A stretch of DNA of 64,000 nt from Rubellicoccus peritrichatus (lineage in GTDB: Bacteria > Verrucomicrobiota > Verrucomicrobiia > Opitutales > Cerasicoccaceae), in contig NZ_CP136920.1 of the NCBI RefSeq assembly GCF_033100135.1, positions 496,001 to 560,000 of the forward strand, given 5' to 3'. The notes beneath the pieces were generated by a model. It was not told the origin of the DNA and did not search any database. It was given only the letters and a program-made list of their open reading frames with translations. Shown piece by piece: positions 53,481 through 64,000 of this stretch (its first letter is position 1; the number at the start of each line of letters is the position of its first letter). Position numbers and translations under genes: made by a program.

Positions 53481-54359
53481 TCAACCAAGGCCAAGACCAT
53501 AGCGATCCCAAGCCAGGGAGGCTGACTGGCCCATTTCCATTTCTTCAAGGAGTTTGACCAATTCATTGGTCTTGGGAGCCTGTTTCTCAAGAACTCCAAC
53601 ATCGTGGTCAAACTCAAGAGTCACCAACTTCAGGTTCAACTTTAGCAATTCGGCACTTTCAGCCACTTTTTCCCTGAAACGCGGTGGCGTTAATTGATCT
53701 GCATTCTCCAAAATGCCATCGATGGATTCGTGAGCCAGCAACCATTTCGTTGCCGTCTTTGGCCCGACACCTTGTATGCCGGGGATATTATCAGAAACGT
53801 CACCAACCAGAGCCAAATAATCCGGGACTTGCGCAGGAGGCACTCCAAATTTCTTTTCAACACCAGCACTATCCAGTCTACGCCAGCCGAGCCGAGGATT
53901 GGCCGTAGGAGCCGGTAAAAGCTGAGAAATACTCTGCCCCACACACTGCCCTAAGTCCTTATCCGCGCTCACGATGACAACATTATCTCCTGCCTCAGTA
54001 AATCTTCTGGCTGCAGAAGCAATTAGATCATCCGCCTCGACTCCTTCCCGTGAAACAACTGGAAATCCGATCAATTCCGCAACCTGACGCAAATAAGGTA
54101 ATTGCTGGGACAATGCCTCAGGCATTTCATCGCGATTAGCCTTATAGTCAGGAAGCAGCTCCTGATGTCTATCTGATCCACCTTCGTCGAAAAAAACAAC
54201 GACAAGATCAGGACTCTCCATGTCCTCGAGCTTCCAAAGGGTTTTTACCCAACCATGAATTGCTCCAGTAGGAAAACCATCGCTTCGGGTAAGATCTGGC
54301 AAACCGTAATAACTACGGAATGCCAGATTAAAACCGTCGAGCAGAAGAATTTTGCTCAC
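53481..54359 (-). CDS. Stand-alone 5'-3' exonuclease (Pol I N-terminal type)
   Basis: A 292-residue FEN-like nuclease corresponding to the N-terminal domain of DNA polymerase I. The metal-binding acidic residues are visible in ILLLDGFNLAFRS (start), VVVFFDEGG, GVEADDLIASAA and VSADKDLGQ, and the H3TH region reads VGDVSDNIPGIQGVGPKTA. It may remove RNA primers (ExoIX/Xni-like role). The start is probably GTG 54359 because the TTG at 54365 lies only two codons earlier. It is convergent with the response regulator. Confidence 0.9.
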   Translation of the reverse strand: MSKILLLDGFNLAFRSYYGLPDLTRSDGFPTGAIHGWVKTLWKLEDMESPDLVVVFFDEGGSDRHQELLPDYKANRDEMPEALSQQLPYLRQVAELIGFPVVSREGVEADDLIASAARRFTEAGDNVVIVSADKDLGQCVGQSISQLLPAPTANPRLGWRRLDSAGVEKKFGVPPAQVPDYLALVGDVSDNIPGIQGVGPKTATKWLLAHESIDGILENADQLTPPRFREKVAESAELLKLNLKLVTLEFDHDVGVLEKQAPKTNELVKLLEEMEMGQSASLAWDRYGLGLG

Positions 54360-54408
54360 AATCAAGAAAAACTATCTGCTGCTCAATACTGCGAAGAGAA
54401 AAGCCTCT

Positions 54409-57051
54409 CTATTCTAAATCAAGGCTGAATGCCTCATCCGTGCTCGTGTTATAAAACCAGCTCGGATTGGAAGTTCCTTCATAATAGAAAAGCCATGCCT
54501 TGTATGTATCACTGTAGAGGAACGGATAATCCTGATCGTTAGTAAAGAACCAACCCAATACTGGAGAATAGAACCATACTGCCTCAGGAGAAAGGCTACT
54601 TGTGAAGAGCCAACTCAATGTAAAGTGATAATACCACGGATCCTGTCTTAAATTCGTAAAACTCAACCATGGAGAGTTTACCCAACCATCATCATCGGCT
54701 TCTCCACCCAAGAGGACTGACTGTATTGGAGGGAAGCGATCCAAGTAGCGAGGGTCATCCTGCATTTCTTGAAGCTGAGAGTTCAAATCTTGATCTGTAA
54801 ACTCACGAATCGTGGCATTTGTGGGTTGCTCGTTAAACATCCCAATAACTAAGAATCCAGTTTGCCAATACGGTCTTTGGCTAAATGTATCGATCAATAA
54901 ATCACTACCATCATCGAATGTTTCCTCAGTTATGAATATTTCAGTGTAGTTGATAAAACCACCTAAATTAGCCATCCGGATGGCTCCCTGCTCTTTTTGC
55001 AATTGGCTGGGGCCTGCTCCATATTTTGAAAAGTAAAGTTGATCTACCAAATTTTGGCGATTCAAGATAATTGCAAAATCATTACCAATGACATCAGGAA
55101 CTGGTCCAAACTGAAAAAGGTACTCAGCTGAATCATACAAATTATTCAAAAGTGTAGTTAAGACCAATGAGCCAGTGACGCCACTCCCTGCATCATCCGG
55201 TCCGAATAATGACAAAGTATAAGCACCAGTACCAATACCATCAACATCCAACAGGAAAGTTGCTGTGCCATTTAATGTGGCTGCAAGCTCTGGATTGATA
55301 ACGAAAAAACCATTACCTGAAGAAGCAATCAATCCACCTGTTTCTGTCCTGAAGGTTAATTGCACGAAAAGAGGACTTGTGATGCTTGCAGTAATCAATT
55401 GAGTGCCGGACACCGTAAACTCATAAGTATCAATCTCTCCGATTGTATCTAATGTACCACTGACCGTGTCTCCAATTGAAATAGGAATGTTATCCGTTCC
55501 ACTTCCACCACCGCCACCGGTATTGAGCGAAAGCATCGCTGCTTGAAATTCTGCAGTGCTAGGGAAACGGCGCAAGACAGTGCTGTAAGCACCAACTACA
55601 CTAGTGCCATCTCCCCCCTGGGAAGATTGACCTATCAATTCTGATAAGAATTCAGTTCGAGTTAGCTTGCCCGTATCCAGTTGATCAACGAAATCGTCTC
55701 TAATGACATCATTTGGAGTGTCTCCAAAAAAGTCCAAGAAGCTCTGAGTCACAAAATCAGCATTGTTTGAGAGAGGATTAAAAACTGCCTGCGTTGCTAC
55801 TCCGGGAGAAGAAAATAAAGTGCCATCATCATACTCAACATTAACAACAAAAACAAAATCACCTGGAACGGTTGTATTAAAAACGACCTCGTAAGGCGGA
55901 TCAGTTAAAATGCTAATTTCAGCACCATTTGCCAAAAAAGTCGCCTTGTTTATATTGTTATTTAGAGGATTGATCGTGGCTTCAATCGTAACATCCTCAA
56001 AAACAGAAAACTGGAATCCATTTACTGGAGATGTAATTATTGCCTCTCCTCCAATAATTTCCGGAGTAACAGTAACAGAGTTTGTCGATGTATCTCCCCT
56101 ACTGTCAGTTGCTTCAACTTTAACAACAAGATCACCAGATGTCGTTGGAGTGTAGGAAGCCTGAAACGGATAAAGGTTATCTGTTTCAATAAGTGTGTCG
56201 TTAATGAAGAATTGAACCTGCTCGATCGAAGAGTTACCAGAAGTCGCTGTAGCAAGGATCTGAAATGGACTATTCAGTTTCACTTGCGTGCCATTAATTG
56301 GTGAAGAAACAATTACATTAGTATCTGAGACCTGCACCGTCGAAATATTACTAATATTTGCCATAGTCCACGTAACAGTAACTCTGTTGTCAGCAGGGCC
56401 TTCAGTAACATCTCGTGCGTAATGAGAGAGCACAAAATAAGAAAATGTGCCATCTTCAGACGAAGAGTCAGTGAACGAAAAAGTCGATGCAGTTGGAGAA
56501 ACTGTTTCACTGACAAAAGTCCCATTTCTAAGGAAAATAAGCCCTCCAAGCGCCTCACCAGCAGAATCAACTGAACCTGCCGCACTAATGACAGTGTTAA
56601 GACTAATGCTTGACCCAGTCAGTGGAGTATCTAACTCCACCAAGCTAGGAATAAAGCCACGATTTGCAACGGTCAGGCCACCCAGATTAGAAGTTGCCGT
56701 TTCACCATCACCATCAGTAACAGTAACTGATATTGCTGGATTACCTTCAGTGATTGCTGGATACACATAGAAACTCTGAGTCCCAGTCTGAACCACTGTG
56801 CCATCAACAGAAAACTCGTAATTCACAATATCGGAACCATCGATATCACGAGCAACTGCGGTGCAAACAATATCACTTCCAAGAAGGAATTGTCCAAGAT
56901 TCCCTGAAGGGTAAGGAGCCGTCAAGCTAACGAAGGGTGCGGTTGCATGCAGCGAACCGGCAGCAATGAAGGATAACAAAGCCCCCGAGAAAACATGCGC
57001 TAGCGAACATCTCCTGAGCCTATTTAATTGGAGACTTTGTAATAATTTCAT
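54409..57051 (-). CDS. Large secreted multidomain protein with Ig-like, PPC-like and W/Y-rich C-terminal regions
   Basis: An 880-residue exported protein with a signal peptide (about residues 1-36). Then follow three to four Ig-like or bacterial-adhesin-like modules (about 40-430; INGTQVKLNSPFQILATA, VNGFQFSVFEDVTIEATI), a helical DUF4214-like region (about 430-505; LTRTEFLSELIG), a PPC-like beta domain (about 519-620; TVSGTLDTIGEIDTYEF), a second DUF4214-like region, and a C-terminal block (about 795-880) of repeated aromatic words: SPVLGWFFTNDQDYPFLY, AWLFYYEG, NPSWFYN. The block resembles a C-terminal module seen in other Opitutae surface proteins and may act in anchoring or sorting. It lies 46 bp downstream of the secretin and is a candidate client or accessory part. 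Confidence 0.75.
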   Translation of the reverse strand: MKLLQSLQLNRLRRCSLAHVFSGALLSFIAAGSLHATAPFVSLTAPYPSGNLGQFLLGSDIVCTAVARDIDGSDIVNYEFSVDGTVVQTGTQSFYVYPAITEGNPAISVTVTDGDGETATSNLGGLTVANRGFIPSLVELDTPLTGSSISLNTVISAAGSVDSAGEALGGLIFLRNGTFVSETVSPTASTFSFTDSSSEDGTFSYFVLSHYARDVTEGPADNRVTVTWTMANISNISTVQVSDTNVIVSSPINGTQVKLNSPFQILATATSGNSSIEQVQFFINDTLIETDNLYPFQASYTPTTSGDLVVKVEATDSRGDTSTNSVTVTPEIIGGEAIITSPVNGFQFSVFEDVTIEATINPLNNNINKATFLANGAEISILTDPPYEVVFNTTVPGDFVFVVNVEYDDGTLFSSPGVATQAVFNPLSNNADFVTQSFLDFFGDTPNDVIRDDFVDQLDTGKLTRTEFLSELIGQSSQGGDGTSVVGAYSTVLRRFPSTAEFQAAMLSLNTGGGGGSGTDNIPISIGDTVSGTLDTIGEIDTYEFTVSGTQLITASITSPLFVQLTFRTETGGLIASSGNGFFVINPELAATLNGTATFLLDVDGIGTGAYTLSLFGPDDAGSGVTGSLVLTTLLNNLYDSAEYLFQFGPVPDVIGNDFAIILNRQNLVDQLYFSKYGAGPSQLQKEQGAIRMANLGGFINYTEIFITEETFDDGSDLLIDTFSQRPYWQTGFLVIGMFNEQPTNATIREFTDQDLNSQLQEMQDDPRYLDRFPPIQSVLLGGEADDDGWVNSPWLSFTNLRQDPWYYHFTLSWLFTSSLSPEAVWFYSPVLGWFFTNDQDYPFLYSDTYKAWLFYYEGTSNPSWFYNTSTDEAFSLDLE

Positions 57052-57097: not shown

Positions 57098-59818
57098 TTA
57101 TTCAGCAATTTGCCGACTAACACCGCCACCTGGGGATACAATAATTGGATTCTGGAAAAGGGAGTTTGGTTCCACATTTTTTAGACGCTGCTTGCTCGGT
57201 GAGCCACCTGGGCTAATCAAATTAGCAGTCACAAAAATGAGGAGATTACGTTTCTGCGAAGTTTCGCCCTTATTTTGGAAAAGGCGTCCAATGAATGGGA
57301 TGTCACCAAGAACAGGAACTTTGTCGTTCACTGTTAGAATCTCTTCACGGGTTAAACCACCAATAACTACCGTTGCACCATCATAAACAGTGACTTCTGT
57401 CCGAACTGCGCGGGTAGAGAAGATCGGCTGGAAGAAACCAGAAGGAACAGTAACCGTTGTGGCACCTGAAATCGCGATACTAGGGCCACCATACTCAACG
57501 AAACCTTCAAACTCTGTCACACGAGGCTCAAGCTTGAGAGAAATATTTTCGTTTTCTTCAACCGTAGGCGTCACTTCCATCTCGACACCAACATTACGAA
57601 CCGTGAAGTCTTGTGGCGTTCCTGCAGTGATGGTAACACCAGCAGAGCCACCGCCATTTGCATTACCTGTTCCAACTTCAGACTCAATGTCTCCAAAGTT
57701 TTCTGGGTAACGAAGCTCTTGAGCCACAACAATTTGTGCGGTTCTTCCAGAAAGAACGGTCAGGCGTGGAGAACTCAACAAGTCACTACCTTCTTCACGC
57801 TGTAGTGCGTTGATAACCAAATCAACATTGACGCCATCAATAATCCCAAATGTTGAGAACAAGCTGGTTGCACCAGTTCCTAAGTCGATTGCATTAGGAA
57901 TTTCCGGAGCAGCGAGATCCGAATTAATGACTGTCTGTCCATTTTGAATAATCTCCAAAGGCAAGGTGCCTGCTCTTGAGATGCTGAAAGCTTGCGAAAG
58001 ACTACGGTTGTCAGTCTGGAATTGAGATTTTGGTGAAGTGATTGGAGCTCCAGTAGTTGGGTTGATACCAGTGGTTACTGAACCACTTCTGATATTCCAG
58101 CTGAAGCCAAGTTCATCCAACGATCCCTGATTCACTTCCATGAACTTTGCCTCAATTTCAACCTGCTTAGGTTGGTCATAACGACGAAGAATATTACGCA
58201 TCTTTTCGAGATTACGAGGAGACTGCGTTACAATCAATTGAGTGCCATCAAATGCCAGACTACTTCCTGGAACACCTTCAAAATCAACACCTGCACGCTG
58301 GAAAAAGCTTTTGAGTCCATCTTCAGTATCACTTGCTGAAGGACCTGCGGAGGGAGCGGCTGCTGGTGCAAATGGATCGGCAGGAGCGCTTCCGCCTCCA
58401 CCACTATCTTCTGCACCAGTCAGACGAATGACAACACCACGTGAGATTGGGAAGAATTCAGTTTCCAAGAGGTTGGTTGTTCCCTTTGTTACGAGAACCG
58501 CTTCATTGCGAATGTCCCACTGAAAACTGACAGTTTCCACTGTAAAATCTAGGATCTTATCTAGCTTAAGGTTGCGCAAAGTAATACTCACTGGTGGATC
58601 TTGACCTGGAGGTGCAATAAGAACCATGTTCACACCACGTTCGTTAAGAGGCAGTGTGGGGTCATCATATTCCACTGAAAGTTCAGAAAGTGTTTCGACT
58701 ACACGAGAAAGAGGCACACCAGAGAACTTTACACTAGGAATTTCAATAGAGCTAATTTTATCAAGCAACACAGTAGGCACTGCCTCTGGTCCAATTTCAG
58801 ACTCACGGTCAAAAATTTGTGGGCGCTGCCATGAACGTGCAATTTCCTGCATCATTTCATCACGAGTCTTCGTGTGATCGAGGTATGAAGTTTCATTAAG
58901 AATCTGTGTCGCTTTTACCTGAAGCGCTTTGGCCGCTGCATTAGTTGGGTCACGTGCCTCAACTTCGCGGAACGTCTGAACGGCACCTTCGATATCTCCA
59001 TAAAGCATTTGAGCTCTACCCTTAACCAAGAGTTGCTCTACGACTTGCTGATTAGCAACATACTCAGGGCTGATGTCTTCTGGATTCTGTCTCCATGGAT
59101 TTTGAGATACTTTTTCGATATCAGCGAGATAAGCTTTCAACTGGTCATCTTCGCCGAGCTTTTCTTCATATTCGTCGGCGATTGCATTAGCCTGGGCTAC
59201 GTTGTTTTTAGCAAGTTCTGCTTCACCTTGATCAACAAGAATCTTTCCACGCATCTCTTGAATGTCTTCGATAACAAAGACGGTTGCAGTATTAAGAGGG
59301 AGGCTTGCCTGTGCCTGGGCGAGAAGATCTTCAGCTTCTTCAGTGCGCCCTACTTTAATTAGCTTCTTAGCTGACGCCAACGCTTCTTCTGCTTGTTCTA
59401 CTTGTGCTTTCTGAGCAGTCGCCTCTGCTTCCAACAATCCATCCAAGCTGGAAGTATCAATTGGTGTTGAGGAAGAAGCTCCCGCTGAGCTCGGAGAAAA
59501 CTCTGACACCGATGCGGCCTGACCATATACTGTTGGTTCTCCAGAACTCTTGCGTTCAATGTCCTTGTTCACTGCGTCCAGAAGATTCTGAACATTGGGA
59601 TCATCGGGATTGATGCGCAGAAGGTCTTCTAGATTCTCCTTTGCTACATTCAAGTCTCCTGCATCACGTGCGCGTAATGCCGCAGACATGAGGCGAATTT
59701 TATCTTTCGTTTCAGTGCTTTGAGCTGCCGCTGAAGGCATGCTAAGCATTGATCCAGCAAGCAAGATAGCCAGGACCAAGTAGGAAACGATGCGTTGTGA
59801 GTTTCCGGGGATTTTCAT
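57098..59818 (-). CDS. Secretin with N-terminal TPR region (Amuc_1098-like)
   Basis: An outer-membrane secretin of the type II/type IV pilus family. From ATG 59818 there are 906 residues with a signal peptide (to about residue 33). Next come TPR-like helices (about 40-300; LRARDAGDLNVAKENLEDLL, VKGRAQMLYGDIEGAVQTF) and N-domains (VKFSGVPLSRVVETLSEL, SITLRNLKLDKILDF). The secretin core follows, with VEIEAKFMEVNQGSLDELGF and VVIGGLTREEILTVNDKVP. The C-terminal signature is VLGDIPFIGRLFQN. An ATG at 59842 adds eight residues. It is the last of five co-directional genes with Amuc_1098-Amuc_1102 order. Confidence 0.88.
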   Translation of the reverse strand: MKIPGNSQRIVSYLVLAILLAGSMLSMPSAAAQSTETKDKIRLMSAALRARDAGDLNVAKENLEDLLRINPDDPNVQNLLDAVNKDIERKSSGEPTVYGQAASVSEFSPSSAGASSSTPIDTSSLDGLLEAEATAQKAQVEQAEEALASAKKLIKVGRTEEAEDLLAQAQASLPLNTATVFVIEDIQEMRGKILVDQGEAELAKNNVAQANAIADEYEEKLGEDDQLKAYLADIEKVSQNPWRQNPEDISPEYVANQQVVEQLLVKGRAQMLYGDIEGAVQTFREVEARDPTNAAAKALQVKATQILNETSYLDHTKTRDEMMQEIARSWQRPQIFDRESEIGPEAVPTVLLDKISSIEIPSVKFSGVPLSRVVETLSELSVEYDDPTLPLNERGVNMVLIAPPGQDPPVSITLRNLKLDKILDFTVETVSFQWDIRNEAVLVTKGTTNLLETEFFPISRGVVIRLTGAEDSGGGGSAPADPFAPAAAPSAGPSASDTEDGLKSFFQRAGVDFEGVPGSSLAFDGTQLIVTQSPRNLEKMRNILRRYDQPKQVEIEAKFMEVNQGSLDELGFSWNIRSGSVTTGINPTTGAPITSPKSQFQTDNRSLSQAFSISRAGTLPLEIIQNGQTVINSDLAAPEIPNAIDLGTGATSLFSTFGIIDGVNVDLVINALQREEGSDLLSSPRLTVLSGRTAQIVVAQELRYPENFGDIESEVGTGNANGGGSAGVTITAGTPQDFTVRNVGVEMEVTPTVEENENISLKLEPRVTEFEGFVEYGGPSIAISGATTVTVPSGFFQPIFSTRAVRTEVTVYDGATVVIGGLTREEILTVNDKVPVLGDIPFIGRLFQNKGETSQKRNLLIFVTANLISPGGSPSKQRLKNVEPNSLFQNPIIVSPGGGVSRQIAE

Positions 59819-59884
59819 CTTTTTGTTCGCGAGAAGCAACATAGCGCGGTTTAGTTCGAAGAGAGTCTTACAAGTAAAGAAGTC

Positions 59885-60817
59885 TCAGTTAAATAGGTTT
59901 TCAAAGCCTTCAGGCAAAGAGGAATTGTTAGGTTGTTGATTATCCCCAGATGAGCTCTCGGGAGTTGTTTGAGTTATAGTTTCAGGCTGAGTCTCGTAGA
60001 GAGTCCGCACCTCAGATGGATCAAGGTAAGGTGCAGCTTTCTCGACATTCACAGAGTTATTGTCAAAATTAAAGTCAAGTAAGGTGAAAGTTGCATCATT
60101 GCTTTGATGTGTATCACCTATTTCGGCCCATTTAAACTCTGCTGGTGCATATGGGTCCAAAGTTCTCATTAAAATGGTCAATTTTCCTTCAAGGAAGAGC
60201 TTACTTTCAGTTGTAAGTGTGACCTGACGACCATCTTGCTCCAAGTCAGCAATAACAACTGTCGGGACACGGCGCATGGTCCCCTCGATATCATCAACAA
60301 TAAGAGGATACGTGACATTGATAACCTCAAAGCCATGCTCCGGAAATTTGTCACCCATTTTTCCACGGATCGATTCACCCAGTTTGGTGTTATAAAATTG
60401 GACTATAGATTCTTCCATTGATCCATCTTGGGCAAGGAAGAAGGCCTCAAGCTGAACCCTGAAAAGATCGCGTTCGATCTTAACAAGCTGAAGACCAAAA
60501 TCAGGAAGCGGCTCAACTGGAGTCACCGGCTTGAACACCAATTCCCCAGCAATAGGGTCCCAGAAAATCTGTGGTGGAGTAAAGATATCGTATACCTGCA
60601 ACCCCTCGGTGTCTTGGGCCTGAGGATCTCCCCACACAGGATTATCCACCAAAATGGCTGGTGGCTGAACCTCAGAGTAAGCCGAACCGGAAGGTTGTTG
60701 TGTCAATAAGGCATCGGCCGAACGAACCTCGCCTGAGCGCATCAGGAAAAATGCGATACCTCCGGCAAGAGCCAGAAGACCAACAACTAGAAGAATTTTA
60801 TCGTAAAGTGCTTTCAT
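59885..60817 (-). CDS. Amuc_1099-like membrane-anchored periplasmic protein
   Basis: A 310-residue bitopic protein with one N-terminal membrane helix (ILLVVGLLALAGGIAFFL) and a periplasmic part. The mature region has PPQIFWDPIAGELVFKP, LQLVKIERDLFRVQLEAFF and LTTESKLFLEGKLTILMRT, and a Ser/Thr/Gln-rich C-terminal tail. Its position between the Amuc_1100-like gene (14 bp upstream) and the secretin gene matches Amuc_1099. It may connect the inner-membrane platform to the secretin, by analogy with PilP/GspC. This is a context-based assignment. Confidence 0.7.
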   Translation of the reverse strand: MKALYDKILLVVGLLALAGGIAFFLMRSGEVRSADALLTQQPSGSAYSEVQPPAILVDNPVWGDPQAQDTEGLQVYDIFTPPQIFWDPIAGELVFKPVTPVEPLPDFGLQLVKIERDLFRVQLEAFFLAQDGSMEESIVQFYNTKLGESIRGKMGDKFPEHGFEVINVTYPLIVDDIEGTMRRVPTVVIADLEQDGRQVTLTTESKLFLEGKLTILMRTLDPYAPAEFKWAEIGDTHQSNDATFTLLDFNFDNNSVNVEKAAPYLDPSEVRTLYETQPETITQTTPESSSGDNQQPNNSSLPEGFENLFN

Positions 60818-63578: not shown

Positions 63579-64000
63579 TTACTGCTGTTCTTTTCGAATA
63601 AATGCAGCTGGTTCACGCTGATCGATGTAAGGATTGGGCGAAAGGTAGGTTGGAACCAGAATTCCGTCGGTTTCCGACAGCTTCCCGGAGGCTTGAGATT
63701 TGAAACCGTTGATGGAATCCAAGTTGGTAAATCCGGAAGAAAAACTTTTCTTGTTGTCGACAAGGAGATTGAGCTGCTGCCCATTGACCTCTAACTCAAC
63801 TATCCAGTACTTCGGCTCTTTCGGCAAATTGTCTCTTTGCACAACGTCATATGGCATCCAAAAGGCGATTTCCTTCTTTTTGCCAGTTTCAAGAGTCACA
63901 AGAGTCGCCTCTGCCTGATAAAAGGTAAAGGGGCTGGCCCCCTTACTTTCATATCCGAGCGTCAAGGTGACAGTGATATTGTCGACATAGCGAGGATTCG
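63579..64000 (-). CDS. Amuc_1102-like protein, partial
   Basis: The frame is open beyond the right edge, so the N-terminus is missing; 140 codons are visible. The start of the visible part, NPRYVDNITVTLTLGYESKG, continues into a beta-rich domain and ends with a short tail PAAFIRKEQQ. In Akkermansia a protein of this kind (Amuc_1102) opens the same gene order. The recognition rests mainly on gene order and length, so the function stays open. It is 92 bp upstream of the PilM-PilN gene. Confidence 0.6.
   Translation of the reverse strand, partial: NPRYVDNITVTLTLGYESKGASPFTFYQAEATLVTLETGKKKEIAFWMPYDVVQRDNLPKEPKYWIVELEVNGQQLNLLVDNKKSFSSGFTNLDSINGFKSQASGKLSETDGILVPTYLSPNPYIDQREPAAFIRKEQQ

Follow-up and report, generated by a model that had tools for sequence, protein, structure and literature searches.

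Pilus clusters of the Akkermansia type have attracted study for their part in glycan attachment and for their effects on the host, and export of folded proteins is known from type II and type IV pilus systems. Among the known modules of exported proteins, choline-binding and SLH modules retain their carriers at the surface by binding a surface component, the choline-binding ones being terminal on varied exported proteins, and PEP-CTERM/exosortase and type IX C-terminal sorting domains are terminal tags that a genome carries either on tens of its exported proteins or not at all. Akkermansia Amuc_1099-1102 have been termed MUL2 and described as a type IV-like pilus that attaches to glycans (PMC13174399), the operon-encoded protein TcpF is exported in a pilus-dependent manner (PMC9565799), and choline-binding modules consist of tandem aromatic beta-hairpins with short linkers that form a beta-beta-solenoid (PMC4471590).

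We analysed a stretch of 64,000 nucleotides of the Rubellicoccus peritrichatus genome (hereafter the window), whose relevant features are collected in Table 1. Between positions 57098 and 63486 it carries the MUL2-like gene order PilM, Amuc_1100, Amuc_1099 and secretin, the Amuc_1099 gene being assigned by position only. The locus thus shares with Akkermansia MUL2 and its secretin Amuc_1098 the gene order and, by NCBIfam, homology of three of the four proteins. It differs in that all window homologues score under the NCBI equivalog cut-offs, in that a protein without sequence match occupies the position of Amuc_1102 (MUL2A, archaeal-pilin-like) and, over the compared range Amuc_1098-1102, in the addition of a large Ig-repeat protein behind the secretin. 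The secretin matches the NF042912 Amuc_1098_fam model with 392 bits (E 3.6e-117) and does not reach its curated cut-off of 750 bits, which is exceeded in 0 of 273 Opitutales genomes; judged by sequence, it is a homologue of the Amuc_1098 family and not an equivalog. For the 218-aa protein at the Amuc_1102 position, neither an NCBIfam match (E<=1) nor a significant PDB sequence match was obtained. Since the equivalog cut-offs are missed and this last protein is unmatched, a pilus function would be carried over to the locus by homology and gene order only. Divergent from the cluster and beyond the window end (L297:1614-4551, and likewise in L298) lie genes for a TolC-like outer-membrane protein, so named from an NCBIfam match of the L298 copy, and for an apparent membrane-fusion protein, a pair whose place beside the pilus-like operon is conserved between R. 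peritrichatus (G000) and G240, a genome of the same family.

Table 1. Features of the secretin cluster and of the 880-aa protein, in window positions.
Feature	Positions	Strand	Basis
Presumed 5'-3' exonuclease-like gene, usual secretin neighbour in relatives without insert	53481..54365	-	ORF listing; synteny
880-aa exported Ig-repeat protein, last gene of secretin cluster	54409..57051	-	ORF, stop codon included; orthologues in same slot
Aromatic five-hairpin domain (predicted), residues 790-880	54412..54684	-	own-genome profile matches and AlphaFold model
DUF4214-like stretch, residues 430-472	55636..55764	-	Pfam PF13946 E 0.015, below cut-off
Best of three Big_7 Ig-like stretches, residues 246-307	56131..56316	-	Pfam PF17957 E 4.7e-19
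N-terminal Sec-type signal peptide, about residues 1-36	56944..57051	-	read from translation; signal-peptide-like by heuristic
914-aa Amuc_1098-type secretin, N-terminal TPR-like part	57098..59842	-	PF00263 2.5e-36; NF042912 3.6e-117
310-aa protein, Amuc_1099 position	59885..60817	-	position; NF042425 only E 0.08, residues 2-34
Amuc_1100-like protein, 331 aa	60832..61827	-	NF038287 6e-21, 75 bits against cut-off of 180
Amuc_1101-like PilM, 545 aa	61849..63486	-	NF045709 4.4e-106, 356 bits against cut-off of 650; PF11104 5.5e-25
218-aa exported protein, Amuc_1102 position, runs past window end	63579..64000	-	L297:580-1236

The cluster closes with a minus-strand ORF of 880 aa (54409-57051 in the ORF listing of the window), which the original prediction had placed 46 bp behind the secretin on the same strand; with the secretin ending at 57098, this distance is exact. 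Two features of the protein were absent from that prediction: a signal peptide visible in the translation at the N-terminus, and three Big_7 Ig domains (Pfam, E 4.7e-19). Of the two DUF4214-like regions it had proposed, one stands as a likeness, the stretch at residues 430-472, which at E 0.015 and 15.8 bits does not reach the PF13946 gathering cut-off of 23.2, and the second is without support; nor did the PPC-like domain find any, the segment showing no Pfam PPC match even at E<=10.

An aromatic block had also been noticed at the C-terminus, and W, Y or F indeed make up 26 of the 88 residues at 793-880, the most aromatic 88-residue stretch of the window among 43 non-overlapping ORFs of at least 200 aa. 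The margin is small (aromatic fraction 0.307 vs 0.273 in the best stretch elsewhere), and the 7 W of these 88 residues compare with up to 9 in another window ORF. Aromatic content was therefore rejected as evidence on its own, another ORF of the window being nearly as aromatic; it is the recurrence of the ~95-residue pattern at 62 places of the genome (E<=0.01) that puts the block beyond chance. Structure prediction, which had been suggested as a check, was carried out with AlphaFold on the window domain and 74 relatives, and gave ten strands arranged as five successive hairpins (pLDDT 89.6, pTM 0.80); in the window protein these span residues 790-803, 806-817, 825-837, 844-856 and 864-877, and we read them as a repeat. 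On this model, the last ~90 residues are predicted to fold on their own, as a domain made up of five aromatic beta-hairpins.

Neither Pfam nor NCBIfam holds a model matching this domain (profiles of 14 members, for Pfam also of 75 members, E<=1). Nothing convincing came from a PDB sequence search with a 75-row profile, whose best match, a photosystem I peptide at E 0.38, was judged to be chance, nor from the domain model in Foldseek (best E 2.1 for the PDB and 0.91 for viral structures) or VIA-align (best Z 2.8 over 65 residues), a lack of relatives that, with these tools, is no proof that the fold is new. No tblastn match was found in plasmids and phages at E<=0.01, and open-access PMC papers yielded no description of the domain or of such surface proteins. 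Within this coverage, the predicted five-hairpin aromatic domain is undescribed and in none of the family libraries searched.

When the 880-aa protein is compared with the whole genome, it matches itself and 31 further places (E<=1.35), almost only with its last ~100 residues. Profile A1, built from 14 of these own-genome matches to the C-terminus, is the one that retrieves the domain at 62 places (E<=0.01). Fifty-seven carriers were recovered whole, after removal of ORFs truncated at a locus end and of duplicate tails: the domain lies at most 20 residues from the C-terminus in 44, is N-terminal and directly behind the signal peptide in 10, and lies 30-146 residues from the C-terminus in the 3 counted in neither terminal group. 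The expected stand-alone terminal module of exported proteins is thereby borne out, nearly always terminal and nearly always in a single copy per protein. A signal-peptide-like N-terminus was scored in 50 of 54 carriers vs 25 of 43 window ORFs, by a heuristic that is lax, as the latter count illustrates. The cargo is varied and includes multicopper oxidases, trypsin-like and subtilisin-like (subtilase) proteases, MauG, a beta-lactamase-fold protein, a cyclophilin, DUF1800, DM13 and a histidine phosphatase, among others. Three tandem paralogues of ~530 aa (L091, own genome 837800-843700) each bear the domain directly behind the signal peptide, the two that were tested having no Pfam match, and domain copies with in-frame stops at 264935-265213 and 765553-765810 of the same genome are likely decaying.

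Beyond R. peritrichatus, the domain was detected in 77 of 273 Opitutales genomes (E<=1e-6) and in 3 of 141 genomes of a class sample, all three in the order Opitutales; the wider profile A4 found it in 7 of 288 genomes of a phylum sample, two of which (G414, G474) lie outside the order. Copies per genome are usually many or none, with at least 18, the upper limit of the scoring, in many positive genomes and 0 in closely related ones. A pattern scan of 84,980 species genomes returned 85 stretches, and the domain was present in all 85; among the 80 listed with titles, all that do not name Opitutales, Opitutia, Puniceicoccales or Verrucomicrobia name Deltaproteobacteria or Syntrophobacteraceae. 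Six genomes with the latter titles contain 2 to 16 copies each, distributed over many contigs of up to 303 kb and forming a sequence type of their own (these are MAGs). The search for an Amuc_1098-type secretin in these six genomes gave a best E of 2.5e-15, compared with a reported E of 0 for the true homologue in G397 in the same search.

Residues 236-777 of the 880-aa protein are orthologous to the proteins that occupy the same slot behind the secretin in the same-family genome G240 (1.6e-72) and, in another family, in G191 (3.7e-37) and G143 (1.1e-24). The slot proteins measure from 562 to about 5,145 aa and carry adhesin-type domains (Big_7, PKD, PD40, DUF4214); in G113 and G230, a DUF4214 match exceeding the cut-off immediately precedes the aromatic domain, and in two f48 genomes proteins of 4,363 and 4,475 aa contain Laminin_G_3, C-type lectin and bacterial surface Ig-like domains. 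In four f2 genomes that lack the aromatic domain (G328, G236, G051 and G216; L187-L190), large proteins lie behind the secretin and share a different end block, YR[SC]...CFF.L.V..PE, which may be a further terminal domain belonging to this slot; in G216, a large gene near the secretin has the opposite orientation. Neighbouring proteins of 632 and 600 aa in G252 (L177:4934-8843) have tails with other aromatic repeats (e.g. SWCWTNYNWYGWIYDY), which did not match the domain profile. Proteins that read as PEP-CTERM-like are found near the secretin locus in G191 and G219 (L157:2648-3193 and L097:199-1904), so that two kinds of terminal tag coexist there.

The association of carriers with the secretin was followed using profile A3, made from nine secretins, with Amuc_1098-type secretins called at E<=1e-60. 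By this measure, 65 of the 77 domain-positive Opitutales genomes have such a secretin and in 12 (7 of 43 if only good-quality genomes are taken) none is detected. Fifty of the 65 entered the reading, the secretin being partial or at a contig end in the other 15, and in a further 15 the ORF downstream of the secretin is cut by a contig end, leaving 35 resolved genomes. In 18 of them the secretin is immediately followed by a carrier gene, and in 23, which represent 13 of 20 genera and six family groups, a carrier lies within three same-strand genes, the additional five comprising two with a split ORF and three with the carrier behind the exonuclease gene; the remaining 12 have no carrier among the first four genes. 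These counts take as linked G220 and G316 on the strength of profile A4 (8e-07 and 2e-05, but only about 1e-3 with A1), and G367 and G309 in spite of split ORFs. For 13 of 20 genera, a null rate of 4% per genus gives a binomial tail of 4e-14 and one of 6% gives 7e-12; the rate is our own estimate, derived from ~60 copies in a 5.8-Mb genome and the inspection of three genes. G158 and G173, which contain a single copy each, carry it at the secretin locus, and of the four secretin matches in G240 (= G397) only the Amuc-type one has a carrier nearby, the others being at least 70 kb from the nearest copy. The gene's place in the secretin cluster is a conserved trait and not a chance neighbourhood, and to this extent the original prediction, which drew on that position, is supported.

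This association has its limits. The protein is in part absent from the locus in relatives: in G219, G122, G183 and G209, all of the same family, the slot gene is missing and the secretin is directly followed by the gene that we take, from its sequence, to be 5'-3' exonuclease-like and that in R. peritrichatus comes after the 880-aa gene. Whether genomes with the block always carry the secretin cluster had been put as a check, and 12 Opitutales and six deltaproteobacterial genomes have it without a detected Amuc_1098-type secretin; to that extent it does occur away from such a cluster, and a strict dependence of the domain on the secretin was rejected. Conversely, the secretin family is matched at E<=1e-10 in 251 of 273 Opitutales genomes (other secretins pass this threshold too), and 182 of these lack the domain (251 less the 69 with both). 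A tree of 148 domains requires 9 changes for the 23 secretin-linked copies, which suggested clustering; thinned to one per genus, with 10 linked rows of the 13 named (three were dropped at length and E limits), it requires 8 vs a shuffle mean of 9.6, with 11 of 300 shuffles as low. A single origin or a clade of their own for the linked copies was not supported.

The lectin, Ig and propeller domains of the slot proteins, taken together with the glycan-attachment role of the homologous locus, are most simply read as those of a surface adhesin working with the pilus-like machine. We propose that the 880-aa gene, as part of an Amuc_1098-1101-like gene cluster of several Opitutales families, would specify a large surface protein with Ig repeats, exported by Sec and most likely acting as an adhesin or as a glycan-binding partner of the MUL2-like machine, that this carrier would cross the outer membrane through the Amuc_1098-type secretin, and that the domain most likely keeps it on the cell surface by attaching to a component there, as a choline-binding or SLH module does. 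The adhesive role, the export through the secretin and the anchoring to a putative surface ligand are each what we infer; the proposal as a whole, an Ig-repeat adhesin or glycan-binding partner of the pilus/secretin machine that ends in a surface-retention domain, has in our estimation about an even chance of being correct. The compact five-hairpin fold of the AlphaFold model, with its surface-type aromatic repeats, was counted in favour of retention, and the presence of the domain at both termini is more in keeping with a binding domain than with a C-terminal sorting signal that is cleaved off. The domain could, however, itself be the export signal that the Amuc_1098-type machine recognises; folded periplasmic carriers would dock through it and leave via the secretin, the slot protein being the founding substrate. 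The conserved linkage in 23 of 35 resolved genomes, the single-copy genomes with their copy at the locus, the one secretin of four with a carrier nearby in G240 and the precedent of TcpF for pilus-dependent export of an operon-encoded protein (PMC9565799) all speak for this, but it is difficult to reconcile with the 182 Opitutales genomes that combine a secretin-family match with absence of the domain, and with the domain in six deltaproteobacterial and 7 of 43 good-quality Opitutales genomes devoid of a detected Amuc-type secretin, and we regard it as rather unlikely. The original suggestion of a C-terminal signal of this machine is also not supported, in view of the 10 of 57 carriers with an N-terminal domain and of the 251 genomes with a secretin match vs 77 with the domain. 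Since the domain is borne by many exported proteins, at either end and also without this secretin, retention or docking is favoured over a secretin-only signal.

A general carbohydrate- or protein-binding domain, shuffled among exported proteins, would account for two positions, diverse cargo and presence in another phylum; the slot would then hold an adhesin and the linkage would be indirect, in agreement with the f2 genomes, whose large slot proteins end in a different block. Nevertheless, a domain that is nearly always terminal, in one copy per protein and in tens per genome, resembles a common tag more than the glycan-binding domains of enzymes, and this explanation appears to us unlikely. 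A broader conception would make the domain the tag of an undescribed display system, with tens of exported carriers per genome tagged at either end, one common surface receptor or polymer on which they dock, transfer between Opitutales and deltaproteobacteria, and its largest client in the exporting MUL2-like operon; we advance it tentatively, as a rather improbable one. A mere aromatic tail beside an unrelated gene could be argued from an aromatic content only marginally the highest of the window and from the four same-family genomes missing the gene at the locus, but such a coincidence is very improbable and is refuted by the 62 profile matches in the genome, the confident predicted fold and the 13 of 20 genera that show the linkage.

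If the proposal of a surface-retained adhesin partner is right, it names a domain held by none of the family libraries searched and present on more than 50 exported proteins of one genome, and offers a way into the surface organisation of Opitutales. For the Akkermansia-type pilus cluster, it would add, from another class, a candidate for an adhesive partner, and a testable link would tie the secretin to one definite client.

Among the described terminal modules, PEP-CTERM/exosortase and type IX domains resemble the aromatic domain as terminal tags of tens of exported proteins with a many-or-none distribution across genomes, but the latter is a folded unit of ~90 residues that also occurs at the N-terminus. 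Of the PEP-CTERM features, neither PEP motif, membrane helix nor basic tail is seen in the translation of the 880-aa C-terminus, and there was no NCBIfam match; the type IX C-terminal sorting model likewise gave none (14 members, E<=1), and the strictly C-terminal location of type IX domains contrasts with the N-terminal one in 10 of 57 carriers. Choline-binding modules differ in that the aromatic domain has no Pfam or Foldseek match, the choline-binding Pfam repeat model included (E<=1, 14- and 75-member searches), and in that its carriers belong to diderm bacteria; with regard to the beta-beta-solenoid, the model has five hairpins and Foldseek and VIA-align gave nothing convincing. With these modules of Gram-positive surface proteins the predicted domain nonetheless shares tandem aromatic beta-hairpins with short linkers and a terminal position on varied exported proteins.
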